64,000 bases of DNA from positions 1 to 64,000 of the forward strand of contig CAJFGS010000007.1 in assembly GCA_904377855.1 (NCBI GenBank), given 5' to 3'. Of the stretch, positions 749-22,183 are shown piece after piece. The notes under the pieces are model-generated. The model saw only the letters and a program-made list of their open reading frames with translations, ran no database searches and was not told the origin of the DNA. The DNA is from Candidatus Avimonas merdigallinarum. GTDB taxonomy: Bacteria > Bacillota > Clostridia > Oscillospirales > Acutalibacteraceae. The translations under genes were made by a program, and so were the position numbers. The first letter of the stretch is position 1, and each line of letters begins with the position of its first letter.

Positions 749-1729
749 TTAACTATACTTTTCCACCCCCCTTTTTAAATTCTCCCGAATCCTCTCCCTC
801 AATTCTACCGGCGCGATCACCTCCACATGGTTGATGTACTGCATCGCCCAGTGCTCCATCGCCTGTAAGCTGGCCTTCAGGCTGACTCTGACCTTTCCGC
901 CGTCCAGCTGCTGCAGGCGGATGTCCGTGCCAAACCAATCGATCACCTGATCGATGATATACCCCTCCGCGATCATCTCCACCGGCTGGGGCTTATCGTT
1001 GAACATATAGGGCAGACCGGTGGCCAGCTCCTTATAGTCCACCCCGGCTTCATACCCTTTTACCGTCTGCAGGGGCGTGAGCGGCTGATCGGTCAGCCTG
1101 ATGTTTGTGATCCGGTCAAGACGGTAGAAAACGACATCCTTCCAGTATTCGTTGCGCGCCATCAGATAATAGCGCTGGTTATGGAGAAGAAGCTGATAGG
1201 GGGAGGCGGTATGAAACGCCGACTTGTGCAGCTTTTTATCCAGCCCGTACTTGTTGTAGTCAAAGGTGATCTGTTTTCCCTGCTCGATGGCGTCGTCAAT
1301 GATTTCAATATTGTAAAACAGGGCCTGGTTTTCCGTCTTGCACCACTCGTTCACCGAATAGATATTCTTCACATGAGAACGGAAGTATTGATTAGACAGG
1401 CCGCACAGGCGGTCGATCAAATCGGCGGAGTGCTTGGCCGTGATATATTTGCTGCACAGCACCCCGTCAATGAGCATGCGCAGCTCGGAATCCTCGAACC
1501 GCCGGCCGTCCAGATAGCTACCCGCCCGCCGGGATTCGATGTCGATCCCGGCCTCCTTCAGCAGGGAAATATTCCGGCTGATGGCCTTTCGCTCAATGGC
1601 GATGCCGTATTCCTGCTCAAGATGCCGGGCGATGTCCTCCTGCGTCAGCGGATGGTCATAATCGCTGTACTTCTCGAAAATTTGCAGGATACGGATAAGC
1701 GCCAGCTTTTTTGGCTCTAGATTATCCAT
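749..1729 (-). CDS. WYL-domain transcriptional regulator
   Basis: The protein has 326 residues. An N-terminal winged HTH (about 1-75, with TQEDIARHLEQEYGIAIERK) is followed by a WYL domain (about 135-225, with SPYQLLLHNQRYYLMARNE and FYRLDRITNIRL) and a WCX-like C-terminal region. WYL regulators bind nucleic-acid or nucleotide ligands and often control phage-defence genes. It is the last gene of a co-directional run behind the retron, about 110 bases from the stop of the agmatine-deiminase-like gene. A TATAAT-like box lies upstream of the ATG, so it may have its own promoter. Regulation of the retron is inferred from position only. Confidence 0.88.
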   Translation of the reverse strand: MDNLEPKKLALIRILQIFEKYSDYDHPLTQEDIARHLEQEYGIAIERKAISRNISLLKEAGIDIESRRAGSYLDGRRFEDSELRMLIDGVLCSKYITAKHSADLIDRLCGLSNQYFRSHVKNIYSVNEWCKTENQALFYNIEIIDDAIEQGKQITFDYNKYGLDKKLHKSAFHTASPYQLLLHNQRYYLMARNEYWKDVVFYRLDRITNIRLTDQPLTPLQTVKGYEAGVDYKELATGLPYMFNDKPQPVEMIAEGYIIDQVIDWFGTDIRLQQLDGGKVRVSLKASLQAMEHWAMQYINHVEVIAPVELRERIRENLKRGVEKYS

Positions 1730-3385: not shown

Positions 3386-4471
3386 TCATTCTCCTTTTCC
3401 AATTTTATATTGGCTCTCCTGCCTCTGTTCCACTTTCTGTAAGGCATCCCGAAACCACGCATTTTCCGGCTCGATCTGCAGCACAAAATGGAGCTTACCG
3501 ATGAGATGGTTCAGATACCGTTCCTCCTCCGGTCCGTTCTCTCCGATAAAATCCGTGCGGTTGGCATATCGGATGCTTTCGGCCAGGCCGAATTTCAGCG
3601 CATAATACACTTCCTGCCGAAGCCCGCGCTTATAGTCGCCCGAAACCGAAACCTTTTCGTTCACCGTAAGCCCCGTTACGCTTTGCCGGTTGGCGCTGGT
3701 TACAAACCGGGTTTTCCTCTCGTTGAGCTCAAACCCCATTTCTTCCAGCATGGATTTCGCCTTCTGATAAACGGCGAATAACGGCCGGTCAGCGGAAAAG
3801 GTCATGTCGTCGCAGTAGCGGGTATAGGCAATGCCGCGGGCCGCGCACCATTTCCCAATGCTGTTGTCAAAATTACGCATCACCAGATTCGACAGGGCGG
3901 GGGAAGTGGGCGCTCCCTGCGGCAGCACATCCTCCCGGCAGCAGAGGGACGTCAGCATAACGCCGATCTGTCTCGGAAAATAGCGCGTGTTGAACGCCGC
4001 GCTGTAAACCTGGAAAAACCGGATGCTGCCGAAAAAGTCGGTGATGTCCAGCTTCAGTAGATAGCGCTTCCCCACGTGAGGGGCGGCGTTTTGCGCAAGG
4101 GTCCTTCCCCGGACATAGGCCGCCGCATATGGGGAAACCGGCAGTTTGGCAAGGATTTGACGCCGGATTTTATTCTGGTACGACCGCAATTCCGGGTTTG
4201 GCGCGTACAGCTTCCGGATGCCGCCGCTTTTCTTTTTGATGGTGAGCGGGCGGTATTCCCGACCAGCGTTCTTCGCAAAATAAAACAGCTTTTTTCTCCC
4301 CGTCGCAAAAAAGTCGGCCAGCTGATAGGTGTCATACAGGAAGGGCAGCGAATGCACCGCCTTGAAGTCCAGCACCATATCGGCAGCTTCCAAAATGCCG
4401 AACTTTTTCACAAAAGCCATGTCACATTCTTCAAATGTGACCGTCTCGCCTCGTATAACCATGTTTTTCAT
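3386..4471 (-). CDS. Retron-type reverse transcriptase
   Basis: 361 residues. The retron-specific NAxxH motif (NAAPH, 128-132), the catalytic LDITDFF (141-147), the QGAPTSP block (185-191), the active-site YCDD (219-222) and the VTG motif (265-267) are all present in order. Retron RTs copy the msd part of their own ncRNA into multicopy DNA joined to the RNA by a 2'-5' bond at a guanosine. The expected ncRNA lies immediately upstream on the same strand, flanked by inverted repeats. It lacks the thumb and maturase extension of group II intron RTs. Two genes follow with gaps of 4 and 7 bases, forming an operon. The reading frame is intact. Confidence 0.95.
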   Translation of the reverse strand: MKNMVIRGETVTFEECDMAFVKKFGILEAADMVLDFKAVHSLPFLYDTYQLADFFATGRKKLFYFAKNAGREYRPLTIKKKSGGIRKLYAPNPELRSYQNKIRRQILAKLPVSPYAAAYVRGRTLAQNAAPHVGKRYLLKLDITDFFGSIRFFQVYSAAFNTRYFPRQIGVMLTSLCCREDVLPQGAPTSPALSNLVMRNFDNSIGKWCAARGIAYTRYCDDMTFSADRPLFAVYQKAKSMLEEMGFELNERKTRFVTSANRQSVTGLTVNEKVSVSGDYKRGLRQEVYYALKFGLAESIRYANRTDFIGENGPEEERYLNHLIGKLHFVLQIEPENAWFRDALQKVEQRQESQYKIGKGE

Positions 4472-4712: not shown

Positions 4713-5153
4713 TCAGTTCGAAATAGCAATACCCATTTTCTCGATCACCCCGGCTATGTTCTGCATACAGCCGTACAGTTCAACCAAGTCCTTCCGGTAA
4801 CCGCTGTCCGCCGCAATCAGGTTCTGCGCCTGTTCGCTGCTCAGCACGATTTCCAGGAGCTCCAGCCGCCGGCCGATCAGCCGCACCAGATTGCCGTATT
4901 CGTAATACTCATACGGGGAGCGGAACAGCGGCGATACATCGGCGCCGGCACTGATGATCGCCTGCAGCTTCTGCATGTTCCCGTCCGGCCGGCTTTTGGG
5001 ATGACCGGCGGGATAGACAACGATATGACGCATCGCTTCGGTAAAGTAATACTCCACCAGCGGGCCCCCTTTCCAAGTTCCGTTGACGTCGGCGCCGCCG
5101 GCAATGGCCAGAATGAAGTCCTCGATGTTTTCCACGCTTCCCAGCTTTCTCAT
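4713..5153 (-). CDS. Small uncharacterised protein of the MoxR-VWA operon
   Basis: 146 residues from the ATG at 5153, which has a GGGAGG ribosome site and overlaps the stop of the upstream VWA gene (ATGA). ENIEDFILAIAGGADVNG and AIISAGADVSPLF look like degenerate ankyrin-type turns (GADVN, GADVS), suggesting a small protein-interaction role. No catalytic motif is seen. The overlap points to translation coupled to the VWA protein and a shared complex. Its stop lies 20 bases before the retron ncRNA, so read-through into the retron is possible. Confidence 0.7.
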   Translation of the reverse strand: MRKLGSVENIEDFILAIAGGADVNGTWKGGPLVEYYFTEAMRHIVVYPAGHPKSRPDGNMQKLQAIISAGADVSPLFRSPYEYYEYGNLVRLIGRRLELLEIVLSSEQAQNLIAADSGYRKDLVELYGCMQNIAGVIEKMGIAISN

Positions 5154-6223
5154 AATAGCACCTCCCTTTTTCGCTGACGGCTCTCGGGCATGGCCCATAT
5201 GGTGGGTTTTGGTTCCCTGTCCGGAAATTCCAGGCAACCGTCGGTCAGCACAATAATGCAGTCGTAGTCCTCTTGGCAGGCCTGCCGGTAGGCCGGACGC
5301 ACATCCGTCCCGCCTGTCATAGTGCGCTGGTATTGTGCGAGCGGCACAGCTTTCAGCTCGGTGCCGTCGGTGAAGCCCGCCGCATATACCCGGGCAAACC
5401 GTGCCATTTTGACAAGCTCGCCCAGGAACCGGGCATACATCTCGTCTTCAATGCTGCCGCTCTCGTCCACCAGTGTACAGATTTTCGCCTGGGGCTTAGG
5501 GGATAAAATGTCCTCGCAGATTCCAAACTCGTCAAACTCGTAGGAGAGATAATCCAAATCGTCCCCCAGAACGCTTTTCAAAAGACCTTGCAGCACCACT
5601 CGCCAGTTCCCTTTCGGCGGTGCGGGGATGAATGCTGCTGCCAGCGGCGTGCTGCCCCGCCCGGCCAGCTTACCGGCGCTTTCCACCGCCTCCAGCGTCT
5701 CTAGATCCTCCCAGCCGTCGGAGCCGTCCAGGTTTTTGGCAAGCAGGTCGTCTGTAAGTACGGCGACCCCTGTTTTGTCTGCATCGGGACGGCGGGCGCG
5801 TCCGGCACTGCTGTAAATGCTTTTGGCGTTTTTCCCCTTCGGTTCGTCCAGATTCGATTTCAAATATTCATAAATGTGTTCCGCCGTATCGTTTTCTCCC
5901 AACAGCGCACCAGCCGGCAGCTTGTATCCTGCCCGCTCAATTTGATAGTTGATCGCGATGTCGCAGGCGACATTCCATAATTCACCGATCCGGCCGTTCC
6001 GCCTTTTGGCGTGCAGATGGACAATGTGCAGCAGTTCATGGATCTGCACCGTCAGACGTTCCGGCTTTTTCAGTGATTTCCAGAAATCCGGATTGTAATA
6101 GAGGGTCTTGCCGTCGGGAGTCACGCCGGCGGTGTCGAGCAGCTGGGTGGCGATCACGTTCCGCAGATTCAGGGCCACCGGCGCCAGCCACGGCTCCCGC
6201 CAGATCAGTTCCTGAAAGTTCAT
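5150..6223 (-). CDS. VWA-like metallopeptidase-domain protein (DUF2201 type)
   Basis: 357 residues from the ATG at 6223, which overlaps the stop of the MoxR gene. The N-terminal part (about 30-150) carries a zinc-protease-like HELLHIVHLH. The C-terminal part (about 235-355) is a von Willebrand A-like domain with a DESGS MIDAS motif and later TGGTD and LTDG. Proteins of this pair-with-MoxR type bind substrates through the metal-ion site while the ATPase remodels the complex. The ATP-dependent partner is directly upstream. The substrate is not evident. Confidence 0.85.
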   Translation of the reverse strand: MNFQELIWREPWLAPVALNLRNVIATQLLDTAGVTPDGKTLYYNPDFWKSLKKPERLTVQIHELLHIVHLHAKRRNGRIGELWNVACDIAINYQIERAGYKLPAGALLGENDTAEHIYEYLKSNLDEPKGKNAKSIYSSAGRARRPDADKTGVAVLTDDLLAKNLDGSDGWEDLETLEAVESAGKLAGRGSTPLAAAFIPAPPKGNWRVVLQGLLKSVLGDDLDYLSYEFDEFGICEDILSPKPQAKICTLVDESGSIEDEMYARFLGELVKMARFARVYAAGFTDGTELKAVPLAQYQRTMTGGTDVRPAYRQACQEDYDCIIVLTDGCLEFPDREPKPTIWAMPESRQRKREVLL

Positions 6224-7230
6224 CGGACGCTCAACCCCGCTTTCCTGGCAGCGGAGCGTAGGACGGCCATGCAGTCCTTGCTGGAAATCAGCTTGACGGA
6301 TAACAGCTCCACCGCATATTTGGCAAACATCATCTCGCACTCCGGACTTTGTTCCGCGATCCACTGATAGACGGCAGGGAAATGCTCAGCTGCCCGGTCG
6401 TCCTCCTTGAGTGCGGTGGCCAGCACCGCCGTAAAGGCGGCCAGATGGACGGCGGACGGCTTTTCGGCCTGCCCGGACACAATCTCCTCGATGGTGGGAC
6501 ACAGAGCGCTGTCCTTGTAAAAAGCGCAGAACTTGGCCTCATGCGCGCCGCGCACGGTGCCGTGCGCCGCTTCCCGGTAAGGGATGCCGGCATCCAGAGC
6601 GGCGGACAGGTTGGCCCATTCCCGCGGGCAGGCGGTTCCGGTGGAGGGCTTTTCGATCAGCGCGTCGGGGTTGGCATATAGAAAGGCGCGTATTTTTGAG
6701 TGGATTTGGTTTTCTTCCGCCCACTGGAGCCATTCTTTTACCGACGCCGAAAAGTCCACTGTGAACACGCGGGTTTTGGAGGCGTAAACCATTTCCCGGG
6801 CACCGGTTTCGTCCTCCACACGGTTACCCGCCCCGAACACATAGAGGCCCGGCCTCCCGTTCGGCAGCGAATAATCGAAGGACACGCCGTGCAGCTTCCG
6901 CTCGTTAAAAGGGGAGTAGGCCAGTTGCTGCAGGGCGTCGGGGGCGTTGGTGTATTCATCGAAGAACAGCACGGTTGGGGTGGACGTTTGCCGGTTCCGG
7001 TCGATGCGCTGCAGCCACCAGGCCCTTGCTTTCCGGAGTTCCCCGGTCTGCGGGCAGATGTAGTCCTTGCCCTCAAAGCTGCCCGGCGTTTCGGCCGACA
7101 GGCGGATGTCGATGAGGTCGGCGCCGATGTCCTGCGCAAACCTGGTCACCACCGCCGTTTTGCCGATCCCCGGCGCGCCAAGCAGCATGACCGGGATTCT
7201 GGCCGCCAGCTTCCATATGTTTTCGTCCAT
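6220..7230 (-). CDS. MoxR-family AAA+ ATPase
   Basis: 336 residues from the ATG at 7230 (AGGAG nine bases upstream; an in-frame ATG at 7236 is also possible). Walker A is GAPGIGKT at about residues 22-29 and Walker B is VLFFDEYTNAP at about 90-100. The sensor region follows with VFGAGNRVED. Together with the overlapping VWA gene it forms the usual MoxR-VWA chaperone-like pair. A TACAAT-like -10 lies upstream near 7267, so the operon probably begins here. Confidence 0.9.
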   Translation of the reverse strand: MDENIWKLAARIPVMLLGAPGIGKTAVVTRFAQDIGADLIDIRLSAETPGSFEGKDYICPQTGELRKARAWWLQRIDRNRQTSTPTVLFFDEYTNAPDALQQLAYSPFNERKLHGVSFDYSLPNGRPGLYVFGAGNRVEDETGAREMVYASKTRVFTVDFSASVKEWLQWAEENQIHSKIRAFLYANPDALIEKPSTGTACPREWANLSAALDAGIPYREAAHGTVRGAHEAKFCAFYKDSALCPTIEEIVSGQAEKPSAVHLAAFTAVLATALKEDDRAAEHFPAVYQWIAEQSPECEMMFAKYAVELLSVKLISSKDCMAVLRSAARKAGLSVR

Positions 7231-7327
7231 ATTCATGCACTCCTTTGGCTTTTGGAGCCATTGTAGCACAATTTATAATAAGACCTTATTTGCTATAATT
7301 TTATAAGCGATGGCCTATTTCTTCCGC

Positions 7328-8395
7328 TTAGACCCCGGCTGCCTTTAGCCCTTCCCCAGTGTATTCCACCGCATATTTTTCTCGCAGGCTTCTGCTGTGT
7401 TGCTCCAGCAGCAGATAAGCATAACCGTTCAGCAGAAGCTCTATGCCACAGTTCCCCTTCAGAAATTCGCTCAGGGGCTTTAGAGCCCGGTTTTCTCCCT
7501 CAAGCGGCAGCGGATAATACTCGATGTCCAGATAGTTGGCGTATCCACCGAACTCTTCCCAAATGCCAAAATCTTTCCGGAAGCCGTACCCGTAAGCTCC
7601 CATATCGGAAGTATCGCCCGAGCTTTGGTAATGCTGTACCCGTTTATCTGCTTCCTGCACGAAAGCAGCTTGGAACGGCTGCCCTTCCATGAATCCCTTT
7701 TCTATCATCTCCACGGTATTCCATGTATTCAGATAGTCCAGCACAAAGGGCTGGCCTGGCGCCGCGGCCGGATTCCATACAATATTGCCGCACCGGAAGG
7801 GAGTGGGAAAGGCAAACCACATATGGCCGAACACTTCGTCGGTGTCTTCCTCCGCTTCGTCCGCCGCCTCTATGGAAAGAGGTTTTCCTTCCGCATTCAG
7901 TTCCAGCGTCTGCACACGCCGCCCAGACGTGCCGTTGGAATGGAAGACAGGCCTTTTTTCGATCCGTATTCTGTCTGCGGCTCCCTGCATATCCCGCAGA
8001 CAGCAGGAAAGGCAATCCTCAAAACGGTCGAATAGGATATGTTCTGTTCTCCAGCCGTCGTCTTCCGACAGGTCTTTCCGGGGTGATTCATGATATTCAT
8101 AGGTGTAGACGTAATCTTTTCCGGTACAAAAGCCCTTCAGTTTTTCCCGTTGGCGGACTATATGGCGGCGCAGAAAATCGTGAAAGCTGTTCAGCGCTCT
8201 GAGCCCCGGCCGGCGGTTCCAAAAACAGTCCGGCAGGGTATCGATCACCGCCTGCCATGCGGTGCATTTTTCCTCCAGGTTGGCATTGCGGCACTGCCAG
8301 ACCAGGAACGCTGCTTCCGTGGCAGTGAAGGAATACCTGATTTCCTGTAGATACCTGCGGACATCCCTGGAATGAATAAAACGATAAAAATCCAT
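7328..8395 (-). CDS. Uncharacterised repeat-family protein A (copy 1)
   Basis: 355 residues from the ATG at 8395. It belongs to a family found several times in this window. The N-terminal block (about 1-60) has FYRFIHSRDVRRYL, EAAFLVWQC, LEEKCTAW and DTLPDC. The central block (about 200-225) has FAFPTPFRCGNIVWNP. The C-terminal block has DIEYYPLPLEGE and LSEFLKGN. There is no signal peptide, membrane segment or known catalytic motif. It ends where copy 3 (19350-20639) continues into a cREC domain. Function unknown; the family is clearly real because three copies are long and colinear. Confidence 0.75.
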   Translation of the reverse strand: MDFYRFIHSRDVRRYLQEIRYSFTATEAAFLVWQCRNANLEEKCTAWQAVIDTLPDCFWNRRPGLRALNSFHDFLRRHIVRQREKLKGFCTGKDYVYTYEYHESPRKDLSEDDGWRTEHILFDRFEDCLSCCLRDMQGAADRIRIEKRPVFHSNGTSGRRVQTLELNAEGKPLSIEAADEAEEDTDEVFGHMWFAFPTPFRCGNIVWNPAAAPGQPFVLDYLNTWNTVEMIEKGFMEGQPFQAAFVQEADKRVQHYQSSGDTSDMGAYGYGFRKDFGIWEEFGGYANYLDIEYYPLPLEGENRALKPLSEFLKGNCGIELLLNGYAYLLLEQHSRSLREKYAVEYTGEGLKAAGV

Positions 8396-8437
8396 CTCTC
8401 TGATAAGCCCCCGTTCCATCACGGTTTGTCAGCCATT

Positions 8438-8901
8438 TTACTTATTTTCAACCGGATCGATACAATCCGCTGTTTCTTTAATATAGCCGAGAGATTCCCG
8501 GATTTCCCCGATGCGTTTTCTATTCCTGTCTGCCTGCGCCACCTGAAGAACGGCAAGAAAATCATCCAGTTCGATCCGACCGGTTAAAAGGCGGCTGACG
8601 GCATACAAAAGCCGCTGACCGCCCGGCAGTGGCCCGCCATAGCGTTCCAGCGAAAGATAAGATCCATATAGCTTTTCAGAAAGTCATGAAGGCTGCCTAT
8701 CCTATCCATATTCAGCCGCCTGTCCATGGAAGCATCCGGCATGGCTGCGATGATCTCTTGCCATGCGGCAAACTTTTCTTTCAGGGTAGCGTCGTAGCAC
8801 TGCCAGACCAGGAAGGCAGCCTCCGGCGCCGTGAAGGAATAGCCGATTTGTTTCAAATGCCCGCGAATATCGCGGGAAGGGATAAAGCGAAAAATATCCA
8901 T
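8438..8901 (-). pseudogene. Uncharacterised repeat-family protein A (copy 2), frameshifted and short
   Basis: The frame from ATG 8901 encodes a clear family N-terminus (MDIFRFIPSRDIRGHL, EAAFLVWQC, AAWQEIIAAMPD). It then drifts into nonsense near 8640 and stops at 8584. From about 8640 a different frame reads sensibly (YGGPLPGGQRLLYAVSRLL, then LDDFLAVLQVAQADRNRKR) to a stop at 8438-8440. Together they would make about 150 residues, lacking the central PFxxGD block. A single frameshift, or a deletion joining two genes, explains this. It is probably inactive. Confidence 0.6.
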
Positions 8902-9478: not shown

Positions 9479-10606
9479 CTAACGCGGCTTCCTGCCGGAA
9501 AATTCCCCGGCCTTGAAATTATAGACCGGCTGGAGGCGCCTTTCGACCTGGACAGTATCCGTGATATTTTCCAGGATCTCGTCCATCGGCTTATAGGCCA
9601 TAGGGCATTCGTCCAGCGTCTCCGCCGACACACTGGTGGTGAAAATGCCTTCCATCTCTTTTTTGAAGGCGGAAACGGTAAAGGCATTCGCCGCTTCCTT
9701 CCGGCTCATCAGCCGCCCGGCACCATGGGGTGCGCTGAAGTTCCAGTCGGGATTGCCGAGCCCTGTGCAGATCAGGCTCCCATCCCGCATATTGAGCGGG
9801 ATCAGCAGCTTTTCCCCCGCTTTGGCGGAAACGGCGCCCTTGCGGAGGAGCCCGTCCGCAAAATCGATATAGTTGTGAACCGTGGAAAAACTGTCCTCCT
9901 CGTGCAGCTTCATGCCGTCCAGGATAACCTCTTTGATGATCTGTCGGTTGAGCGCGGCAAAGCGCTGCATCAGCTCCATGTCGTGCAGGTAGTCCTCCAG
10001 ATCTGTACCGGTGAGATACGCCAGCTCATAGGGGATCTCTGCCTGCGCCTTCCCGCCAAGCGATTGATACGCCCTTTCCTGATAATACTCCGCCACCCGC
10101 AGCCCGAGATTGCGGCTGCCTGTATGGATAACGAGATAGAAATCCTCCCCATCCCTGTCCACCTCAATGAAATGGTTGCCGCTGCCCAGGGTTCCAAGGC
10201 TTTCGGCGGCACGCCGTGCGTCGAGCCTTTTTATACAGCGGAGTTCAGCAATATCGATCCGTCCGTGACTGCGATGCGGACGTTCCCGCACCTCCCGGCC
10301 GCAGGGGATATTCTGACGGATAAAGCTGTCGAGGGCCGGGAGATTGAGACGTTTTTCCTTCAGCTTCACCGTCAGCATCCCGCATCCGATATCCACGCCG
10401 ACCAAGTTCGGAACCACCTTGTCCGTGATGGTCATGGTCGTCCCGATGGTGCATCCTTTTCCGGCGTGGACGTCGGGCATAATGCGGATCCGGCTTCCCT
10501 GGGCAAACGGCTGGTCGCAGAGAGCCTGAATCTGCCCTTCCGCCGACGGTTCGAGCGCGTCCGTATACACCTTGGCGGTATTGTATTTCCCCTGAATTTC
10601 TATCAT
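9479..10606 (-). CDS. rtcB: RtcB-family RNA ligase
   Basis: 375 residues. Mn/GTP-dependent RNA ligase that joins 2',3'-cyclic-phosphate or 3'-phosphate ends to 5'-OH ends. Seen motifs are MPDVHAGKG, GVDIGCGM (metal-binding Cys), GTLGSGNHFIEV, HTGSRNLG and PHGAGRLMSR, whose His is the expected guanylylation site. The length suits the shorter bacterial RtcB branch. It is the third gene of a minus-strand operon with a PTP-type phosphatase and an unknown 209-residue protein upstream and an esterase downstream. RtcB operons usually repair RNA cut by toxins or stress nucleases. Confidence 0.95.
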   Translation of the reverse strand: MIEIQGKYNTAKVYTDALEPSAEGQIQALCDQPFAQGSRIRIMPDVHAGKGCTIGTTMTITDKVVPNLVGVDIGCGMLTVKLKEKRLNLPALDSFIRQNIPCGREVRERPHRSHGRIDIAELRCIKRLDARRAAESLGTLGSGNHFIEVDRDGEDFYLVIHTGSRNLGLRVAEYYQERAYQSLGGKAQAEIPYELAYLTGTDLEDYLHDMELMQRFAALNRQIIKEVILDGMKLHEEDSFSTVHNYIDFADGLLRKGAVSAKAGEKLLIPLNMRDGSLICTGLGNPDWNFSAPHGAGRLMSRKEAANAFTVSAFKKEMEGIFTTSVSAETLDECPMAYKPMDEILENITDTVQVERRLQPVYNFKAGEFSGRKPR

Positions 10607-10630: not shown

Positions 10631-11260
10631 TTACGGCTGTATGATGGCATCGATGACTTGTCCGGTATACGGAACCCGGTCGTATGTGTTCCCCGCCTCA
10701 TCCCGATAGAACCGGTTATCCCCGGTGCTTTCCTCGTCCCGTACGATCGTAACAGTAGCGATTGTGTCAGCGTGTTCCTGTAAAAAACGGGTGATGGCCG
10801 CCGACCAGTCGAAGCCGTTGGAGGAAATGCGGAAATACAGATCCCGGCAGCCCGGCACCGTGTGGTACAGCCCGCCCAGACGGGCGCGGAGGAATTCCTC
10901 GTTCAGCCGTTCCATTACCCGCCGATTCATGCTTTCCTCACTGTCTGAAATGGGAAAGCGCAGTTTATCAGCAATTTCCAAGACAAAGGAATGGGTTAAA
11001 AATACATAGGGCTTTCTTTTTATGTCGATTACCAAATTGCGGACGGCATTGCGATGCAAATTGAGCGATGCACCGTAGGCGGCAATCAAATGCAGTACAA
11101 GCTGTCGAGCCTCCGTGCTTGACGTGTGATGATACAGCCATTCGGCGGCGTAAAGGATTTCTTCCACATCCAGCACACTCCCGTACAGATGCTGCAGGCG
11201 GGGAAACGCTTCTCCGTCCCGGCGGATCATCCAGGCGACGGGCTTATTTTCGCGGCTCAC
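10631..11260 (-). CDS. Uncharacterised protein of the RtcB operon
   Basis: 209 residues. The ATG at 11260 overlaps the stop of the phosphatase gene (ATGA), so translation is coupled. It is mostly helical and charged, with VEEILYAAEWLYHHTSS, RQLVLHLIAAYGASL and a C-terminal YDRVPYTGQVIDAII. No known domain is recognised. The tight linkage to a PTP-like phosphatase and RtcB suggests a role in substrate recognition or control of RNA end processing, but that is inference from position only. Confidence 0.7.
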   Translation of the reverse strand: MSRENKPVAWMIRRDGEAFPRLQHLYGSVLDVEEILYAAEWLYHHTSSTEARQLVLHLIAAYGASLNLHRNAVRNLVIDIKRKPYVFLTHSFVLEIADKLRFPISDSEESMNRRVMERLNEEFLRARLGGLYHTVPGCRDLYFRISSNGFDWSAAITRFLQEHADTIATVTIVRDEESTGDNRFYRDEAGNTYDRVPYTGQVIDAIIQP

Positions 11261-11715
11261 CGCTGCCCGTCCCTCTTTTCGTTGAGAGCCTTTAAGGTCT
11301 TGCGGAACACCAGGACATTGGGGCAGTAGCGCCCCAGTTCGTCGGCAAATATCTCGATGCCATTGTGGTCAAAATGCTCCTTGATGGCCGCCGCCACCGC
11401 CGCACTGCGGGATTGCCCGAAATGGCACTGGCAGAGAAAGACGGCCGTATCCTCCAGATGGCGGTAGACAAAATCGGCGATTCGCCTGGCCTGGTCCTCG
11501 GAAAAGAGACGGAAAGCAAATGCCCCGCCGGTTTCGTAGTCAAAGCCCTCCAGCATGACGTCGTCAAACTGGAGCCGCAAAATATGATCCGGACGGTGGG
11601 CCAGAACCGGCGGGGCGGCGTCGGTATCCCCGATGCTGATCAGGGAAGTCCCCGGTGCAAAGGGGTGCCGGGCCAGTCTTTCAATGGAATCGAAGCTATG
11701 AATTTCCACCTGCAT
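11257..11715 (-). CDS. PTP/DSP-like phosphatase of the RtcB operon
   Basis: 152 residues. The cysteine phosphatase loop CX5R is seen as CHFGQSRSAAVAAAI at about 94-108, and a conserved Asp lies earlier in LQFDDVMLEGFD. It resembles small tyrosine or dual-specificity phosphatases. In RNA repair clusters such enzymes are thought to act on nucleic-acid phosphates rather than on proteins. It is the first gene of the operon, with AAGGAGG before the ATG and a TATACT box about 30 bases upstream of the start codon. Protein phosphatase activity remains an alternative. Confidence 0.75.
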   Translation of the reverse strand: MQVEIHSFDSIERLARHPFAPGTSLISIGDTDAAPPVLAHRPDHILRLQFDDVMLEGFDYETGGAFAFRLFSEDQARRIADFVYRHLEDTAVFLCQCHFGQSRSAAVAAAIKEHFDHNGIEIFADELGRYCPNVLVFRKTLKALNEKRDGQR

Positions 11716-11896: not shown

Positions 11897-13018
11897 TTAA
11901 GTTTTTTCCTCTTGGTCTGCTTCCGCTTCTTCATCGCTCCATTCTTGTTCCCTTTCCTCCATCTCCTCGACCCAGTCAAGAAAATCATCCTCTTCTGCTC
12001 CTTCGGGAACCTTTGCGATTTCCACAGAGAGGCAGATTTTGTTTTCGCTGTCATTCCCCCTCTCTTTTTCTGAAGCGGCGGGCGGAGAAAGCAGTAGATC
12101 ATGGTAGTCGATAAGAAAACCTGCAAAATCCCAGGGAGAGCGTTTTCCTTTTAGGAATTTACTTAACAGGGAGATAAGCCGATGGCGTTCAGTCAGCGCT
12201 TCGCCCGGGTAATATTCACAATCCATAATCTGGGGAACGAGGGGGACTATTTTATCTGGTTGATCCTCCCACTGAAAAAATCCTGATCGGCGGGGATAGG
12301 AATCTGTCTGTGCGGCAACAAATACCCCGCCGCAAAATGTCTCTTCCGGACTGTTTGGATTGTAAAGCAGATCGCCTGGGCGAAATGGCAGCGGAAAATT
12401 CAGCATCCGCTGGGAAGTCCCAACAGGGTAAAGCACGCCGGTATACACAGCCCACTCACTCTTTTCCATGTTCATAGCATATAGAGAACCCGGCCTGGGT
12501 TCTGCAGACGCGAGCCGATAGTCCGGTAGAAATTTTGCCGCCATCAGGAAATCCCCTTCTGAGTTGTACTTGCTCACCGTGAGTTGCTTGATTTCCCCCT
12601 CGTTCCGAGGAACCGCCTGCATGCATGCCTCCAGAGTGGGGAAATCCTCGTCAATTTTGCGCCATTGCCGCCAAAATCGTTCCCCTTTGGGCAGAAGGTG
12701 GTATTGTACGTCATAAATGGCGGGTTCATCCGTCTGCATAAATGCGGCTGCAAGCTTTTCCTGCTGCGCAATGTATGCTTGCAGAAAAGTGTGCATACTG
12801 TCTCTGTGTTCCGGTTTTATTCCTCTTGTTATGCTGCCGGTTGGGCAATCCGGTATGGTGTCGATGATTTCCCGCCAGGCGGCACACTTTTCTTCCAGAC
12901 TGGCAGTCTCACACTGATAGGCGAGCCAGGCAGCCTCCAAGGCAGTTGGCCGATAGCAAATTCCCCGCAAATAGCTGCGAACCGCACTCGAATTGACAAA
13001 GTGCAAAAAGTCCACCAT
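11897..13018 (-). CDS. Uncharacterised repeat-family protein A (copy 4)
   Basis: 373 residues from ATG 13018, chosen because it aligns with the starts of the other copies. The N-terminal block has EAAWLAYQC, LEEKCAAWREIIDTIPDC. The central block has MLNFPLPFRPGDLLYNP. The C-terminal block has MDCEYYPGEALTERHR and LLSKFLKGK. The last 50 residues are very acidic (EEDDFLDWVEEMEEREQEW and onward). There is no cREC extension. It is upstream of the RtcB operon on the same strand, with a 181-base gap. Function unknown. Confidence 0.75.
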   Translation of the reverse strand: MVDFLHFVNSSAVRSYLRGICYRPTALEAAWLAYQCETASLEEKCAAWREIIDTIPDCPTGSITRGIKPEHRDSMHTFLQAYIAQQEKLAAAFMQTDEPAIYDVQYHLLPKGERFWRQWRKIDEDFPTLEACMQAVPRNEGEIKQLTVSKYNSEGDFLMAAKFLPDYRLASAEPRPGSLYAMNMEKSEWAVYTGVLYPVGTSQRMLNFPLPFRPGDLLYNPNSPEETFCGGVFVAAQTDSYPRRSGFFQWEDQPDKIVPLVPQIMDCEYYPGEALTERHRLISLLSKFLKGKRSPWDFAGFLIDYHDLLLSPPAASEKERGNDSENKICLSVEIAKVPEGAEEDDFLDWVEEMEEREQEWSDEEAEADQEEKT

Positions 13019-13087
13019 TCTTGTTCCCATCCTCTCCGAAGTTTTATATAGAGAGACAGCACCCGTTGCTTCAATTGTTTGAAATAT

Positions 13088-16295: not shown

Positions 16296-16760
16296 CTAGT
16301 TCCAGAGATGTTCAAAATACTTGTCCAGCAGCGCCATTGCCTTTTTCCGGCATTCGGTATCCTGCGGGGATGGTCTATAATGCAAATAGCCGGGACGGGC
16401 CTCCCGGAAGAGACGGGACATCTCTCCCAAGATGTCTTTCCAGCGCGTAAAGGCGATGTGTTCCGCATCCTGGAACTGTCCGGAAACGCCTTTTCCCTCT
16501 TCTGGCGGCCTGGCTATCTCGCGTCCTTCACTGCATTCCTTTTCTATACAGCTCGGGCTCGAATCTGTATGTTCCCGCAGAAGATCGATCACCCCAGGCA
16601 TCACGGTAAGAAACCAGACGTCCAGATCCCATGCGTCCTTTTCGCAGTAGCCCTTGCAGATGCGGTCACGGCAGCATTTCAGATCAAAGAAGAAATGCTT
16701 GATATTTTGGATCGGGGTTTTGATATGATAAACGGAAAAATCGAAAACCGGATACAGCAT
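16296..16760 (-). CDS. Uncharacterised family B protein (copy 2)
   Basis: 154 residues. The ATG at 16760 shares a base with the TGA of the upstream gene (TGATG), so it is translationally coupled. It shares IKHFFFDLKCC, ICKGYCEKD, WFLTVMPGVIDLL and the ending YFEHLWN with 13229-13723. The middle part differs more and is Glu/Pro rich. It is helical, with no known domain. Confidence 0.7.
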   Translation of the reverse strand: MLYPVFDFSVYHIKTPIQNIKHFFFDLKCCRDRICKGYCEKDAWDLDVWFLTVMPGVIDLLREHTDSSPSCIEKECSEGREIARPPEEGKGVSGQFQDAEHIAFTRWKDILGEMSRLFREARPGYLHYRPSPQDTECRKKAMALLDKYFEHLWN

Positions 16761-17149
16761 CAGAGCGCCTCCTCTGCCTGGTATTGATAGTGTGCCGAGC
16801 CGTCTGCCTTCACGCGGATGCTGCGGCCTGCGGCTTCCCCGTTCAGCTCGAATTCCTGAAAGATGACAGAAAGGGTATCCTCCCGGAAAAGGGACGGAGG
16901 GATATAGACGGTTATCCTCCCTTTTCGGATCTCGACCCTTCCCCGAGGAAAATAATGGTAAGGACGGCTGCCCGTGATTTTGTGTCCCAGCCTTTCCCAT
17001 TCGGCCTTGTGGTTAAAATTTTCGCCCGATTTGGAGGAATAACGGACTGGCTGGAGAGCGGTCCCGTCCCGGTCGCAGAGCGCCTTGACCGTTAGCGGCT
17101 TCCATGCGCCGGCCGCGTCCCGGTATATCCAGAAAATCCCTTTATACAT
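16760..17149 (-). CDS. Uncharacterised 129-residue protein
   Basis: The start at ATG 17149 (MYKGIFWIYRD) is preferred, with AAAGGG about 9 bases upstream; a longer in-frame start at 17251 has no clear ribosome site. The product appears beta-rich (GIFWIYRDAAGAWKPLTVKA, VEIRKGRITVYIPPSLF) and ends AHYQYQAEEAL. It overlaps the start of family B copy 2 and is probably co-translated with it. No function is recognised; an immunity-like or binding protein is possible. Confidence 0.65.
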   Translation of the reverse strand: MYKGIFWIYRDAAGAWKPLTVKALCDRDGTALQPVRYSSKSGENFNHKAEWERLGHKITGSRPYHYFPRGRVEIRKGRITVYIPPSLFREDTLSVIFQEFELNGEAAGRSIRVKADGSAHYQYQAEEAL

Positions 17150-17373
17150 AAAGGACGCCCTTTCTGCTAAATAAAAGAGGCGCAGCGTGAAACCGAACTT
17201 CCGCCGCGCCGGGTAAGTTTTTTCGCATGACGCCCGCCGATCGTTTTTCAAGAAATGCCATAAACCTTATAGGATAACAAAAAAATAACGATATCCGGCA
17301 ACTTCAACTATAAACCCGGACCAAAGTCGTAAAATAAGCAGAGCGAACGGCATACGACGGAAAACAGCGCACG

Positions 17374-17883
17374 TTACAAGTCAATCTCCAGCGTTTCCGT
17401 GTTGTTAGCGGTATCCAGCGCCGTCTGCAGGCGGCACAGCTCATCGAAGGCTTTTTCGTAATCGGCCGCTGCCGCCGCACGGTCGTAGTTGATGTGACGG
17501 TAATCAATGATATTGACGCCGGAATACCGATCCTGCTTTTCCCGTGCCTTCGGAAGCCGCGCCTTCATTTCGGCCAGCTTTCTAACCCGGCCAGACAGCA
17601 TAGGAATATATACCAGCGCCTGATCAATAGTCAGGTCAAATCCTTCGAGGGTATGGGTGGTATTGAATACGTTGATGGCGTGCTTGACCGCCAGAATTTG
17701 GCCCTCAGTTTCCCGAAGGCGGGCCTGGGTATCCGCATAGACGTAGTCGGGGCGGAGAGTTTCCGGGTCTTCTCCCATGGCAGCCAGGAAGGTGCTGCTC
17801 TGCTCCTCTTCCTGCAGCAAGGCCTGATAGGCGTCGTTCAGCTTCTTCAGCAGCTTATTTGCTTGGGCAGAAGTGTATTTCAT
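17374..17883 (-). CDS. DIP1984-family (DUF6847-like) protein, copy 1
   Basis: 169 residues from the ATG at 17883 (MKYTSAQANKLLKKLND). It is a long helical coiled-coil protein with VKHAINVFNTTHTLEGF, LTIDQALVYIPMLSGRV and RYSGVNIIDYRHINYD, the pattern of the DIP1984 family, whose function is not established. A closely similar second copy lies at 31702-32211. It follows the sigma-like gene by about 40 bases. The noncoding DNA downstream is also duplicated. Confidence 0.8.
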   Translation of the reverse strand: MKYTSAQANKLLKKLNDAYQALLQEEEQSSTFLAAMGEDPETLRPDYVYADTQARLRETEGQILAVKHAINVFNTTHTLEGFDLTIDQALVYIPMLSGRVRKLAEMKARLPKAREKQDRYSGVNIIDYRHINYDRAAAAADYEKAFDELCRLQTALDTANNTETLEIDL

Positions 17884-17922
17884 AAGAATCGCCATCCTTT
17901 CCATCGAAAAGTATAAAGGGTT

Positions 17923-18285
17923 TTATGTACCGGAAATGTCGCAAGGCGGCGTAATGAAAACCAGCCGTCTTATCGGGACGGAACGGGATGGGTGGCGCAG
18001 CATACGCAGGGCGAGCGCCTCTGTCTTCTTTGCCTCGTCCGGCGAAATACCAAACTGAGCGGCTGTTTCCGCAAGCGAATGGCAAGTGCCGTCGAGAAAG
18101 CCATATTTGTAAAGGATCAGATTCTCCCGTTCTTCCGGAAGGGTATCCAAAACCTCCCGGATTTTCAGTTTGACGGCTTCATTGATGAGGAAGGCAGACT
18201 CGCCGTTATCCGTTACAGCGGCTTTGGGACCGAAAATAGCGGTTAACAGCTGGAACTCCGGGGTAAAGCTTTGGTGGTTGCTCAT
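17923..18285 (-). CDS. Sigma-70 region 4-like small protein
   Basis: 120 residues with AGGAGAGG before ATG 18285. EVLDTLPEERENLILYKYG, LAETAAQFGISPDEAKK and TEALALRMLRHPS form the helix-turn-helix of sigma region 4. Region 2 is absent, so it cannot act as a full sigma factor and may be a DNA-binding accessory or a helper of another sigma subunit. It heads the pair with the DIP1984-like gene. A decayed copy of its C-terminal part lies at 32278-32360 next to the second DIP1984-like gene. Confidence 0.75.
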   Translation of the reverse strand: MSNHQSFTPEFQLLTAIFGPKAAVTDNGESAFLINEAVKLKIREVLDTLPEERENLILYKYGFLDGTCHSLAETAAQFGISPDEAKKTEALALRMLRHPSRSVPIRRLVFITPPCDISGT

Positions 18286-18459: not shown

Positions 18460-19332
18460 ATGGAAGACCACCCGAAAAAGCTGTACAAACTGGTTGGAGC
18501 GGACGGGAAACCCTACTTTTCGGAGCAGAAAGGAACCTTGGGCGGCCACAGGAAATTGAAAATATACGGCCGTCTGGACTGCCCGTCGGCCCTGCGTCAC
18601 ATTGCCCGAGGCGGCTATGTCAAACACCGGGTTTTCTTTGCCGACGAAAAAACCGCCGTTGCCGCCGGTTACCGTCCCTGCGCGGTTTGTATGAAGGAAC
18701 AATATGCCCAGTGGAAACAAAAGCAGAAAAAGGAAGAGGAGCGTATCGCGATGCCTAGAATTTCGTTTCCCAACAACGTACATACAGTGTGTGAAATCGA
18801 AACAGGCGCTCAGGAAATCAAGCGCCTGTCTGCCGAACAACTGAGAGAACCACCTGTCCGGGCGCTGCTGCGGGAGTTAGAGGGGTACCGCATAGAGGTG
18901 GAAGGGCCGTATGCGGTTATCACGCTATCGGGCGCATCGGAGCAAAACGGCTTTACAATCGTATGGGATTATGAGAACGGAACTGTCCCGCACATCAGCA
19001 AAACGCCGTTTGCCGTATGCTCTGCGGTTGCTGGTCAAACAGTAGTTACCCTGTATCTCGTATCCTTCTGGGGGCATCCCGCTGACCTGTGGTACAGCCT
19101 GTTGCCGCTGAACACCGTCAATACAAGCTGCGAACCCGACCGGATCAAGCTGGAGCTCACAGCGGAGGACGTCCGGGACCCGTTTCAGGACTGTCGGATC
19201 ACCGTGAGCGGCAACGACATACTTTTTCACGCCGGAAAACATATACAGCGCATCCGCCGTCCGAGGAATAAATTCAGCCAAGATTCTTCCTCGCCTATTA
19301 AGAAATGCGAAATATCTGCAGGAAGTTTTTAG
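18460..19332 (+). CDS. Ada-type metal-binding module protein
   Basis: 290 residues from ATG 18460, with GGAG nine bases upstream. Residues about 30-75 contain RLDCPSALRHIARGGYVKHR and RPCAVC, which match the zinc-binding N-terminal Ada module (Cys pairs with VFF and AGYRPC). No methyltransferase domain follows; the rest (100-290) is unassigned. Ada zinc modules transfer methyl groups from DNA phosphates, but here a binding role is more likely. It is the first gene of a three-gene plus-strand operon with the cREC and SLOG genes. A TATACT box lies near 18413. Confidence 0.75.
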   Translation: MEDHPKKLYKLVGADGKPYFSEQKGTLGGHRKLKIYGRLDCPSALRHIARGGYVKHRVFFADEKTAVAAGYRPCAVCMKEQYAQWKQKQKKEEERIAMPRISFPNNVHTVCEIETGAQEIKRLSAEQLREPPVRALLRELEGYRIEVEGPYAVITLSGASEQNGFTIVWDYENGTVPHISKTPFAVCSAVAGQTVVTLYLVSFWGHPADLWYSLLPLNTVNTSCEPDRIKLELTAEDVRDPFQDCRITVSGNDILFHAGKHIQRIRRPRNKFSQDSSSPIKKCEISAGSF

Positions 19333-19349
19333 TTTTGGAGGGCTCTTCT

Positions 19350-20639
19350 TTGAACATTTATCGATTTATCAATTCCCGGGACATACGGGAGCATTTAAAG
19401 AAGAACGGCTATGCGTTCAGTTCGCTGGAAGCGGCCTGGCTGGTGTATCAGTGCCGTACGACCAGCTTAGCCGAAAAGCACGCCGCTTGGCAGGAGATCA
19501 TCGAGAATATGCCGGACTGTAAAATAGAAAGACGGCAGAATACACAGCCGCGGGAAAGCCTGCACACTTTCTTGCAGGAATATATGGCGCTGCAGAATAT
19601 GTACATCGAGGAGCTTTACCACACAGACGGGCACACGGTCTATCAATACCGTTGCGTTTATAACGATTCCGGTGATTGGTACGACGGCGAAGCCGTTTTT
19701 TCCTCTTTTGACGCCTGCTGCAGTGCCATACACAACGAGGAAGAGGATGTTCGGAAAATCGCTGTGAGGAAGCGCCGGGTGGACGAATCCTTTTATCTGG
19801 AAGGCATAATGCTGCCGGATAAAACGCTTCTTTCGGTAGAGCCCAGCCGCATTGATAACGAATACGAATTTGATCTGTACCGCCAGTCCTTTGACGGCTT
19901 TTGGTTTGATTTCCCTGTGCCCTTCCAAAGAGGAGATATCCTTTGGGATCCAGAAAGACAAACGGGCTTTTGCGGCGGCCCGTTTGTCATGGAGGGGATA
20001 GCGCTCGAAGGCATATCGTCAGAAAGGGCGAAAGAAAACCTCCGGAAGTACGGGGATACCAGCGATATGAACGCCTGGGGAGAATTTCAGCGGGAAGATG
20101 ACGGACAGATTTATTCAGAAGTAATGGACAATTATATGGACTGTGAATACTACCGCGGGGAGCTTACCGGCAAACGGCGTATTTTAACGGCCCTGAGCAG
20201 CTTTGTGAAGGGCAAGATTGACGTGTGCCTTTTTGCCTGCGCCTATCATCAGATATTAACCGAAGAATATGCCAAAGGCTGTATGCCGGGTTGCTATACA
20301 AAAGAAGGTATGATTCTCGCAGGGCTGGCGCAGCAGGAGCATCGGAAGATCTGGCTGGATGACGTCCGGGAAGCGCCCGCCGGTTATGTGCATTGCCGTA
20401 GTGTAAATGAAGCGAAGAAGTTGATCCTGCAGTGTGAGAAAGAATGTATTGCCATCGATTTGATCGACTGTGACCACGATCTCGGGGATTACGCCCGGGA
20501 CGGCGGGGACGGCATTCGACTTATCGATTGGCTTGCAGAGAGAAAAACCTATTACCCGATAGCGCTGCATACGATGAATCCAGTGGGACGGGAGACGATG
20601 CAGCGGGAAATTGACCGGTATTGGAGGAAAAGGTCTTGA
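19350..20639 (+). CDS. Repeat-family protein A (copy 3) fused to a cREC receiver-like domain
   Basis: 429 residues, starting at TTG 19350 with GGAGGG upstream; this start aligns with the other family members. Residues 1-60 have IYRFINSRDIREHL, EAAWLVYQC, AAWQEIIENMPDC. Residues 180-205 have FWFDFPVPFQRGDILWDP. Then comes MDCEYYRGELTGK and LSSFVKGK. The C-terminal 90 residues (IWLDDVREAPAGYVHCRS, DCDHDLGDYARDGGDG, ALHTMNPVGRETM) match the cREC domain, predicted to process cyclic phosphates. The next gene overlaps its stop (TTGA). Confidence 0.8.
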   Translation: MNIYRFINSRDIREHLKKNGYAFSSLEAAWLVYQCRTTSLAEKHAAWQEIIENMPDCKIERRQNTQPRESLHTFLQEYMALQNMYIEELYHTDGHTVYQYRCVYNDSGDWYDGEAVFSSFDACCSAIHNEEEDVRKIAVRKRRVDESFYLEGIMLPDKTLLSVEPSRIDNEYEFDLYRQSFDGFWFDFPVPFQRGDILWDPERQTGFCGGPFVMEGIALEGISSERAKENLRKYGDTSDMNAWGEFQREDDGQIYSEVMDNYMDCEYYRGELTGKRRILTALSSFVKGKIDVCLFACAYHQILTEEYAKGCMPGCYTKEGMILAGLAQQEHRKIWLDDVREAPAGYVHCRSVNEAKKLILQCEKECIAIDLIDCDHDLGDYARDGGDGIRLIDWLAERKTYYPIALHTMNPVGRETMQREIDRYWRKRS

Positions 20640-22183
20640 AGCTTTTTGTCGGCGGTTCCAAAGGGGTCAAACTATCGGAGAAGATGATAAAAGACAAGAT
20701 CGATGAGTGGATAGCCGCAGAAACGGAAATCCTGATCGGCGACTGCTCCGGCACGGACGCCGCCATGCAGGAAGCGCTTGCCAGCCAGAAATATCCGAAC
20801 GTCACCGTTTATACCGTCCATGAGGCGGCACGCCGCAACGCCGGGAACTGGAGCGTCACCGTTGTTCCCGGTTCAAAGCCCCCGTTTACGTTTCACGATT
20901 ACCGCCGGAAGGATGCCGCCATGGCAAAGGCGGCGGATAGCGGCTTTATGGTGTGGGACGGAAAAAGCCGGGGCACCTTTGTCAATATAGCGGAGCTGCT
21001 CGGTCTCGGAAAACCGGTGGAGGTTTGGCTGACGGAAAAGCAAAGAAGCCTAACGCTCCAAACCTTAGAGGAACTGGCAGCTCTTTTTCCCGAGATTGCC
21101 GCGAAGGATGTCTGGCTTTCCGCAGACGAACAGGCTGCTTTTCTCCGGCAGTTTATGCCGTCGCACTCCATGCAGGCCTATCTGGCATCCCATCCGCTTA
21201 AAAAAAGAGAAATTGTAGACATTATCTGCGGAGCGCCTGTCCCTCTCGAGGAAAAGGTTCGCTGGATGAGCTGGTTGTCCAAGCAGAAAAACCTCTACGC
21301 CGAAATTGTCCGGCAATGTCTGAAAAGCCCGGACAGGCAGGATGCCGGCCTGTTAGCGGAGTATGCCATCGAGGATTCCTTTTCTGCTTTGGCCGGGCAA
21401 ATCCGCCGGGCGCTGCGGGAACTTCACGCCAAGCCGGGGGAATTGTTTCTTTTGATTGAAGCCTGGTATGACGAGGAACTAAAAAATGAAAAAGACGATA
21501 GTGGCACACCATTCCTGGCCTTTGAAAAAGCCATCGAATACATCCGCCGGGACATACAGGAAGGTGAACTGGACGAAAGCTGCACCTGCTGGTACCGGCT
21601 GGAAAAATGGGTGCCGGATGCCAGCGGCCGCTTTGTCCAGCGCTATGTTTACTGGCTGTGGATGGATCGGGTGCTCTATTTTGAAGAGCTAAAGGGTTCC
21701 CCGGCATATCCAGCTTATTATAAGGCTGTTACCACCCGCTTTTCAGGAGACGGGCAGCACCTGAATCTCCCTATCCCGTTTCACGCCGGCGACATCGTGA
21801 TCATCGACTGCCGTCCCTTCAAGCCGCTGCAGTATGCGGTTCTGCTGGAAATCGGAGACAACACCGATTGCTGCTGCGTACAGGCGCTGTGCAGCACCGA
21901 TACGGACAGGTGGATTGTAGGAGCCCTCAAACACGGCAGCCTGTTTCTCCATAACGGCTTCTGCCTGTCCCCGCTGTACCAGCTGGAACCGTGTTCGCAG
22001 CCTCCGTTAGAGAAAGAAGCACTTTTGGATGCTGTTCGGGATTATATTGCCGGTGTGGAGAAGAAGGGTACCCGGCTGTGGGAGGCGCTTGTGTGCCAGG
22101 AAGAAAGCCATCTGGAAGGGTTGACTGAGAATATGGTTTATTCCGCAATAGATATGTTGAAAAAGAAAGTCCATATCCGATAA
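20636..22183 (+). CDS. SLOG-domain protein carrying the family A central module
   Basis: 515 residues from TTG 20636, which overlaps the previous stop and has GGAGG eight bases upstream. Residues 1-130 are a SLOG (LOG/DprA-like) Rossmann domain, with LKLFVGGSKG, ILIGDCSGTDAAMQEAL and SRGTFVNIAELLGLGKP, a nucleotide-ligand binding or cleaving fold. Residues 130-270 are helical. From about 285 on, ESCTCWYRLEKWV and LNLPIPFHAGDIVIIDCRPF reproduce the PxPFxxGD module of family A. The gene ends with a terminator. SLOG domains are frequent sensors in conflict systems. Confidence 0.8.
   Translation: MKLFVGGSKGVKLSEKMIKDKIDEWIAAETEILIGDCSGTDAAMQEALASQKYPNVTVYTVHEAARRNAGNWSVTVVPGSKPPFTFHDYRRKDAAMAKAADSGFMVWDGKSRGTFVNIAELLGLGKPVEVWLTEKQRSLTLQTLEELAALFPEIAAKDVWLSADEQAAFLRQFMPSHSMQAYLASHPLKKREIVDIICGAPVPLEEKVRWMSWLSKQKNLYAEIVRQCLKSPDRQDAGLLAEYAIEDSFSALAGQIRRALRELHAKPGELFLLIEAWYDEELKNEKDDSGTPFLAFEKAIEYIRRDIQEGELDESCTCWYRLEKWVPDASGRFVQRYVYWLWMDRVLYFEELKGSPAYPAYYKAVTTRFSGDGQHLNLPIPFHAGDIVIIDCRPFKPLQYAVLLEIGDNTDCCCVQALCSTDTDRWIVGALKHGSLFLHNGFCLSPLYQLEPCSQPPLEKEALLDAVRDYIAGVEKKGTRLWEALVCQEESHLEGLTENMVYSAIDMLKKKVHIR

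Follow-up and report, generated by a model that had tools for sequence, protein, structure and literature searches.

Two overlapping genes, P2 and P3, form a conserved pair within a 64,000-nucleotide stretch of the Candidatus Avimonas merdigallinarum genome (GenBank assembly GCA_904377855.1, contig CAJFGS010000007.1, positions 1 to 64,000; hereafter the window), the contig being part of a 2.53-Mb genome that is 88% complete. P2 joins an N-terminal module (P2N) to a cREC domain, and P3 joins a SLOG domain to a C-terminal module (P3C). Profile comparison identifies P2N and P3C as paralogous copies of a single undescribed module, and the P2N-P3C pair is a conserved unit across genomes, found with cREC in a setting of RtcB, WYL and KptA genes. 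The pair is a variant within the known cREC/SLOG network of NAD-ADP-ribose and RNA repair, the shared module being the undescribed part. We favour, at a little under an even chance, the idea that it processes and senses nucleotides of the cyclic-phosphate or ADP-ribose type and works with RtcB repair, the chemistry itself being predicted. An original prediction, made from the DNA alone, had grouped P2 and P3 with the upstream Ada-like gene P1 as one functional unit; P1 is instead an optional genus-level accessory to the P2-P3 pair.

The three genes are open reading frames (ORFs) on the forward strand (P1, 18460-19332; P2, 19350-20639; P3, 20636-22183). P2 starts at a TTG codon with GGAGGG, a ribosome site of the GGAGG type, upstream, and P3 starts at the TTG at 20636 (not at 20621), the final two bases of which belong to the P2 stop codon. 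The 4-bp overlap is exactly TTGA (20636-20639), which confirms the coupled starts originally proposed for the last two genes, and it recurs at the same position as TTGA in the sister species Ca. Avimonas caecicola (locus L031) and as ATGA in three further genomes. Ca. Avimonas caecicola has all three as coding genes in the same order, with 77-91% identity per segment, and the ratio of nonsynonymous to synonymous substitution rates (dN/dS) between the two species is 0.12-0.29 in every segment over the whole length of P1-P3. These low values indicate that P1-P3 are selected proteins, including the C-terminal part of P1, and not chance ORFs. Promoter and terminator scans gave results at chance level, and Rfam had no matches within window positions 1-30000. 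Just past P3 (22235-22280, forward strand), visual inspection showed an inverted repeat (CGGTGC/GCACCG) with seven T residues after it, perhaps an operon terminator; its 14-base loop exceeds the limits of the terminator scan.

P2N comprises residues 1-325 of P2, with a predicted local distance difference test (pLDDT) score of about 90 or higher over most of the module, and P3C comprises residues about 150-515 of P3 (the last 360). Their profiles align with an hhalign probability of 92 (P 6.7e-7), and what they share is a helical segment at the N-terminal end together with the motif xPxPFxxGDIV. Three further copies of P2N, one of them a fragment, lie elsewhere in the window (Table 1). Beyond the cREC and SLOG parts, no relatives were found in Pfam, NCBIfam, PADLOC, PHROGs or PDB sequences; P3C had one weak PDB sequence match, to an unrelated enzyme. 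Whole-model Foldseek and VIA comparisons mostly return matches to the Rec and SLOG parts, so that no known fold is assigned to P2N or P3C; a new fold should not be read into this. The original prediction had allotted one domain to each protein; its domain names were right, and what it overlooked were the large paralogous P2N and P3C parts, as well as RtcB nearby. Two proteins of another locus (L053, 11085-12290 and 13093-14112) have a GDIxxxxxxPF-type motif and no Pfam match, and are perhaps additional members of the P2N/P3C superfamily. In locus L035 (14-2396, G090:C32), an internal TAG interrupts the homologue of cREC-P2 and P3C is spread over two frames; decay or sequence errors are possible for this copy.

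Among 150 genomes of the family, P2N was found in five and relatives of P3 in six, with four genomes having both (Fisher P 4e-6); cREC was found in four of the 150, with P2N also present in two of the four (P 0.005). A scan of the collection with P2N gave 36 loci, nearly all from gut Clostridia. P2N and P3C are immediate neighbours, in either order, in nine genomes (the window, L031, L032, L033, L036, L049, L052, L055 and L057), five of these nine pairs share the same 4-bp overlap, and every locus with a cREC-P2N fusion has P3C adjoining. P3C itself occurs both with and without SLOG: the two are fused in the window, L031, L043 and L052, SLOG is fused to P2N in one ORF in L048, and it is a separate gene in L032, L033, L053 and L055. 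P1, by contrast, was found in one of the 150 family genomes (its own) and in two of 341 class genomes (its own and one with a partial match), and among related loci in the sister species only, being absent from all other cREC-P2N loci. The phyletic profile of the three genes, set beforehand as the test of their unity, divides them: P2N and P3C stay together, P1 is separate from them in most genomes, and the trio does not stand as one functional unit. The repeated joining of SLOG and cREC, together with the presence of the Ada gene in the sister species only, indicates that the cREC-SLOG link is recurrent and the Ada gene genus-bound.

P2N and P3C were not found in phage collections (IMG/VR) or PHROGs, save for one IMG/VR contig (L097, IMGVR_UViG_2799112587_000003), and phage records were matched by cREC only. 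This contig carries a viral label; it equals the bacterial contig L041 both in length and in the position of its match, and is probably mislabelled. A phage origin of the pair was rejected on the absence of P2N/P3C relatives from IMG/VR apart from L097.

Gene families were counted in the 36 loci, which were chosen by P2N alone, against a null of uniform placement in which general island clustering is not corrected for. Nine of the 12 cREC copies lay inside P2N loci (0.08 expected), as did three of the 14 RtcB copies (0.07 expected, P 5e-5) and three of the nine KptA copies (0.05 expected, P 1e-5), while WYL genes were present in 12 of the loci (0.6 expected, P 1.5e-12). In L053, RtcB, WYL, a YpsA-type SLOG, two DSPs, three P2N genes, a member of the 'FWI' family and cREC occur within 14 kb; in L085, cREC, AAA, 'FWI', WYL, KptA and a YpsA-type SLOG lie on one strand within about 10 kb. 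L053 is from Ruminococcus turbiniformis, which, with Merdimmobilis hominis (L033), is a culturable carrier of such a set. The SLOG of L085 matches YpsA and that of L039 matches YAcAr. Elsewhere in the related loci cREC and SLOG are joined in other ways, including a SLOG-cREC-DnaG/Toprim protein, which supports the nucleotide-processing theme of the original prediction. That striking SLOG-cREC-primase fusion is a single ORF of L039 (12417-13934) made up of YAcAr SLOG, cREC, DnaG_N and Toprim.

The neighbourhood of P1-P3 in the window is likewise an RNA-repair cluster, for which an earlier mention is possible. Its RtcB, with GCGM at residue 74 and HGAGR (containing the guanylated His) at residue 294, lies 7.9 kb from P1 and 8.7 kb from P2, and the phosphatase-like gene beside it belongs to a DSP family that adjoins P2N and cREC in L053.

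The identity of the cREC domain in P2 was borne out by both sequence and predicted structure. Residues 333 onward match Pfam cREC_REC (PF20274) at 70.8 bits against a cut-off of 27, and residues 328-423 of the predicted structure have a Rec fold (VIA Z 8.8 to a response regulator, root-mean-square deviation (rmsd) 3.1, 86 aligned). D337, D338, D375 and T408 occupy Rec-like active-site positions, the acidic pair D337/D338 and D375 (the beta-3 Asp) being invariant across 10 aligned cREC domains, and the predicted domain is too short to include the customary fifth strand with its Lys. The published prediction for such domains is ring opening of cyclic phosphates, either on RNA ends or within ADP-ribose 1''-2'' cyclic phosphate (PMC7824862, PMC9503650). 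The SLOG assignment of P3 also held: the predicted structure (pLDDT 87) has a SLOG fold at residues 1-150, for which the best Foldseek matches were ShosA, DprA and YpsA and the VIA Z scores were 12.2 to YpsA (rmsd 2.8, 137 aligned), 11.4 to DprA, 11.0 to ShosA and 8.6 to the ThsA SLOG with 3'cADPR. P3 had no Pfam match, and its residues 1-143 matched PHROG 289 at 25.7 bits. For cREC and SLOG together, the predicted targets are cyclic phosphates and derivatives of ADP-ribose, in the vicinity of RNA-repair and WYL genes (PMC7824862, PMC9503650).

Stand-alone relatives of the P3 SLOG were seen on plasmids (L091, L092 and L093), 2-14 bases after a ComF/phosphoribosyltransferase (PRTase) gene and often near restriction genes. 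This arrangement is a ShosTA-like pair, present on plasmids of several phyla.

P1 residues 29-78 match Pfam Ada_Zn_binding (PF02805) at 26.3 bits (cut-off 23), the only Pfam match in P1; neither an AraC helix-turn-helix nor an O6-methylguanine methyltransferase domain was found. In an alignment with Ada of Escherichia coli MG1655, C41, C74 and C77 are kept as the equivalents of Cys42, Cys69 and Cys72, so that, of the zinc-binding motif, P1 has the C-terminal half (RPCxxC), and it retains three only of the four cysteines of the zinc site. Unlike E. coli Ada, it has Gly37 at the position of Cys38, the methyl acceptor of that protein, and a different C-terminal part. Its close plasmid relatives, 51-66% identical over the aligned stretch, likewise have no equivalent of Cys38, the closest relatives having Gly there; their neighbours are restriction genes or a gene for a 2OG-Fe(II) oxygenase. 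The notion that the Ada part senses methyl groups or damage found no support, and P1 as a methyl sensor was rejected on the Gly at the Cys38 position and on its rarity. A nucleic-acid-binding zinc module is perhaps the safe reading for P1, which has a dN/dS of 0.16 against its sister-species orthologue and matches PADLOC PDC-S40. On a Streptomyces plasmid (L069, 3237-4273), the gene of a stand-alone Ada-like protein shares bases with one for a 2OG-Fe(II) oxygenase, which hints at a two-gene unit of its own.

Protein families and gene context suggest how the pair might form a complex, what its substrate, catalysis and ligand could be, and that it may be inducible. P2 and P3 probably form a hetero-complex through their homologous modules, which would place the cREC active site on P2 beside the SLOG nucleotide pocket on P3, and the pair would act in an inducible RNA-repair cluster with the RtcB ligase, the WYL regulator and the DSP-type phosphatase. 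RNA cut by metal-independent RNases would present 2',3'-cyclic phosphate ends, and ADP-ribose 1''-2'' cyclic phosphate could arise in genomes with KptA; cREC would open such cyclic phosphates, while SLOG, in a sensor or effector role, may bind a product that resembles ADP-ribose or is a nucleotide. ADP-ribose-like ligands are bound or acted on by SLOG domains in general, and WYL regulators, in turn, are thought to sense products of this type. A bolder version, which we consider rather unlikely, would make P2N/P3C a new and widespread scaffold of gut Clostridia, with paired subunits bearing interchangeable nucleotide domains (cREC and at least two kinds of SLOG) in an RNA-damage signalling and repair complex around RtcB or KptA. 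If true, this would amount to a previously undescribed route by which bacteria sense breaks in RNA: SLOG and WYL proteins would read a cyclic-phosphate or ADP-ribose signal, and cREC would terminate it.

Several observations weigh against a role in cyclic-phosphate processing alongside RtcB. The enrichment counts include related species, and with near relatives collapsed they become 5 of 8 for cREC (P 7e-10) and P 7e-4 for KptA; most P2N loci have neither RtcB nor KptA within 10 kb. The operon lies on the opposite strand from RtcB, which excludes co-transcription of the two, so that co-function rests on their clustering. KptA was not found in this genome (88% complete), which makes RNA 2',3'-cyclic phosphates the likelier substrate. 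Moreover, cyclic-phosphate hydrolysis by the cREC family is an unproven prediction (PMC9503650).

A defence function is rather unlikely in our view: P2 and P3 would constitute an anti-phage or abortive-infection module in which SLOG senses an infection nucleotide, on the model of Thoeris ThsA, and cREC adjusts or clears that signal, with RtcB, a retron-type reverse transcriptase and other neighbours as parts of a defence island. The similarity of the SLOG fold to ShosA, DprA and the ThsA SLOG points this way, as do the plasmid SLOG relatives that adjoin ComF/PRTase genes and restriction systems, the Ec107-like retron reverse transcriptase in the window and the PDC-S40 match of P1. However, no TIR, SIR2, transmembrane or nuclease effector was found in the operon, PADLOC gives no match for P2 or P3, the reverse transcriptase is about 14 kb off, and P2N/P3C are missing from the phage collections and PHROGs searched. 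It is more improbable that P2N and P3C are themselves effectors (for example, SH3-like RNases) of a toxin-antitoxin or conflict pair, with cREC and SLOG as regulators. The conserved xPFxxGDIVxxD motif appears to open a small beta domain, recalling PemK/MazF-like barrels, and the window holds multiple tandem paralogues and a truncated copy. Against this, fold matches (whole-model Foldseek and VIA) lend no support to a PemK/MazF-like barrel in the GDIV part, no set of conserved catalytic residues emerged, and many paralogues per locus are unlike a simple pair.

There is very little to be said for a three-gene system in which an Ada-module sensor of DNA damage or methylation is coupled to a cyclic-phosphate processor and a nucleotide sensor. 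The two sister species do agree in the order and strand of all three genes, which are under purifying selection, but the Gly in place of Cys38, the lack of AraC and methyltransferase domains and the absence of P1 from all other cREC-P2N loci argue against it. It is also highly doubtful that cREC is a conventional phospho-receiver under the control of a histidine kinase, with SLOG as a passive structural domain: the Rec fold has its acidic pair, Asp and Thr in place, but the domain ends short of the usual fifth strand and Lys, and cREC and histidine kinases reportedly never occur together (PMC7824862).

The preferred reading, nucleotide processing and sensing alongside RtcB repair, can be set against known systems. 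As in the Rtc operon (RtcB-RtcA-RtcR), an RtcB ligase and a ligand-sensing regulator share one neighbourhood; however, RtcA and RtcR were not noticed nearby and a WYL protein takes the place of the CARF/sigma-54 regulator. Here cREC could assume the role in cyclic-phosphate chemistry. The SLOG fold is shared with Thoeris ThsA and ShosTA, and plasmid relatives of the P3 SLOG stand beside PRTase genes, as in ShosTA; here, in contrast, the operon is without SIR2, TIR (Pfam, PADLOC) or PRTase (Pfam), and SLOG is fused to P3C. The cREC systems described previously (PMC7824862, PMC9503650) have the same Rec active-site residues and the predicted linkage to RtcB, KptA and WYL genes, but the fusions that those papers stress are to Nudix, whereas here cREC is fused to P2N and coupled to SLOG-P3C, and the hosts are gut Clostridia in place of phages. 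The roles proposed for cREC and SLOG come from genomic evidence, and the coupled pair offers a compact system for a direct test of the predicted chemistry. Its position in an RtcB/WYL cluster, together with the SLOG-cREC single-protein relative, makes the link of RNA repair to nucleotide signalling testable, and the unannotated module shared by P2 and P3 is now defined and recurs in many gut Clostridia.

Table 1 Features of the P1-P3 operon and its neighbourhood in the window.
Feature	Coordinates	Strand	Evidence and remarks
P1	18460..19332	+	Ada-like zinc-binding N-domain and 190-aa C-part of no assigned function; genus-specific; PF02805, alignment, rarity
P2N (P2 N-module, helical and alpha/beta)	19350..20324	+	Relatives in 36 loci; paralogous to P3C by profile; predicted structure
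P2 cREC domain	20325..20639	+	PF20274; Rec fold; alignment of 10 cREC domains
P3 SLOG domain	20636..21085	+	VIA Z 12.2 to YpsA; best Foldseek matches ShosA, DprA, YpsA; TTG start overlapping P2 stop
P3C (P3 C-module)	21086..22183	+	hhalign with P2N profile; LPxPFxxGDIVxxD motif; with or without SLOG in relatives
Sigma-70 region-4-like small protein, divergent	17923..18285	-	Pfam Sigma70_r4 below cut-off; conserved in L031, L032, L033, L055
176-aa conserved neighbour	17374..17904	-	Relatives in related loci
'FWI' family small conserved neighbour	16760..17152	-	Fused to SLOG in L046, L047
P2N paralogue without cREC	11897..13030	-	Sequence relatives
DSP-type (Cx5R) phosphatase-like	11257..11715	-	CHFGQSR motif; resembles L050/L053 family; no Pfam match
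RtcB RNA ligase	9479..10606	-	Pfam PF01139, 220 bits; GCGM metal-site and PHGAGR guanylation motifs
Truncated P2N paralogue	8584..8901	-	Sequence relatives
P2N paralogue without cREC	7328..8422	-	Sequence relatives
DUF2201 VWA-like protein and MoxR-type AAA ATPase	5150..7269	-	Same pair near P2N in L039, L060
WYL-domain transcription regulator	749..1729	-	Family present in 12/36 related loci

The reverse transcriptase in the window (3386-4471, reverse strand) has a retron RT_Ec107-like model as its best PADLOC match (396 bits) and is overlapped by an uncharacterised 279-aa gene; no Rfam RNA was found near it. In the two SLOG fusions of the 'FWI' family (L046, 4214-5824; L047, 2193-3794), the SLOG domain lies between the 'FWI' domain and an N-terminal domain that looks RecA/DnaB-like on visual inspection.

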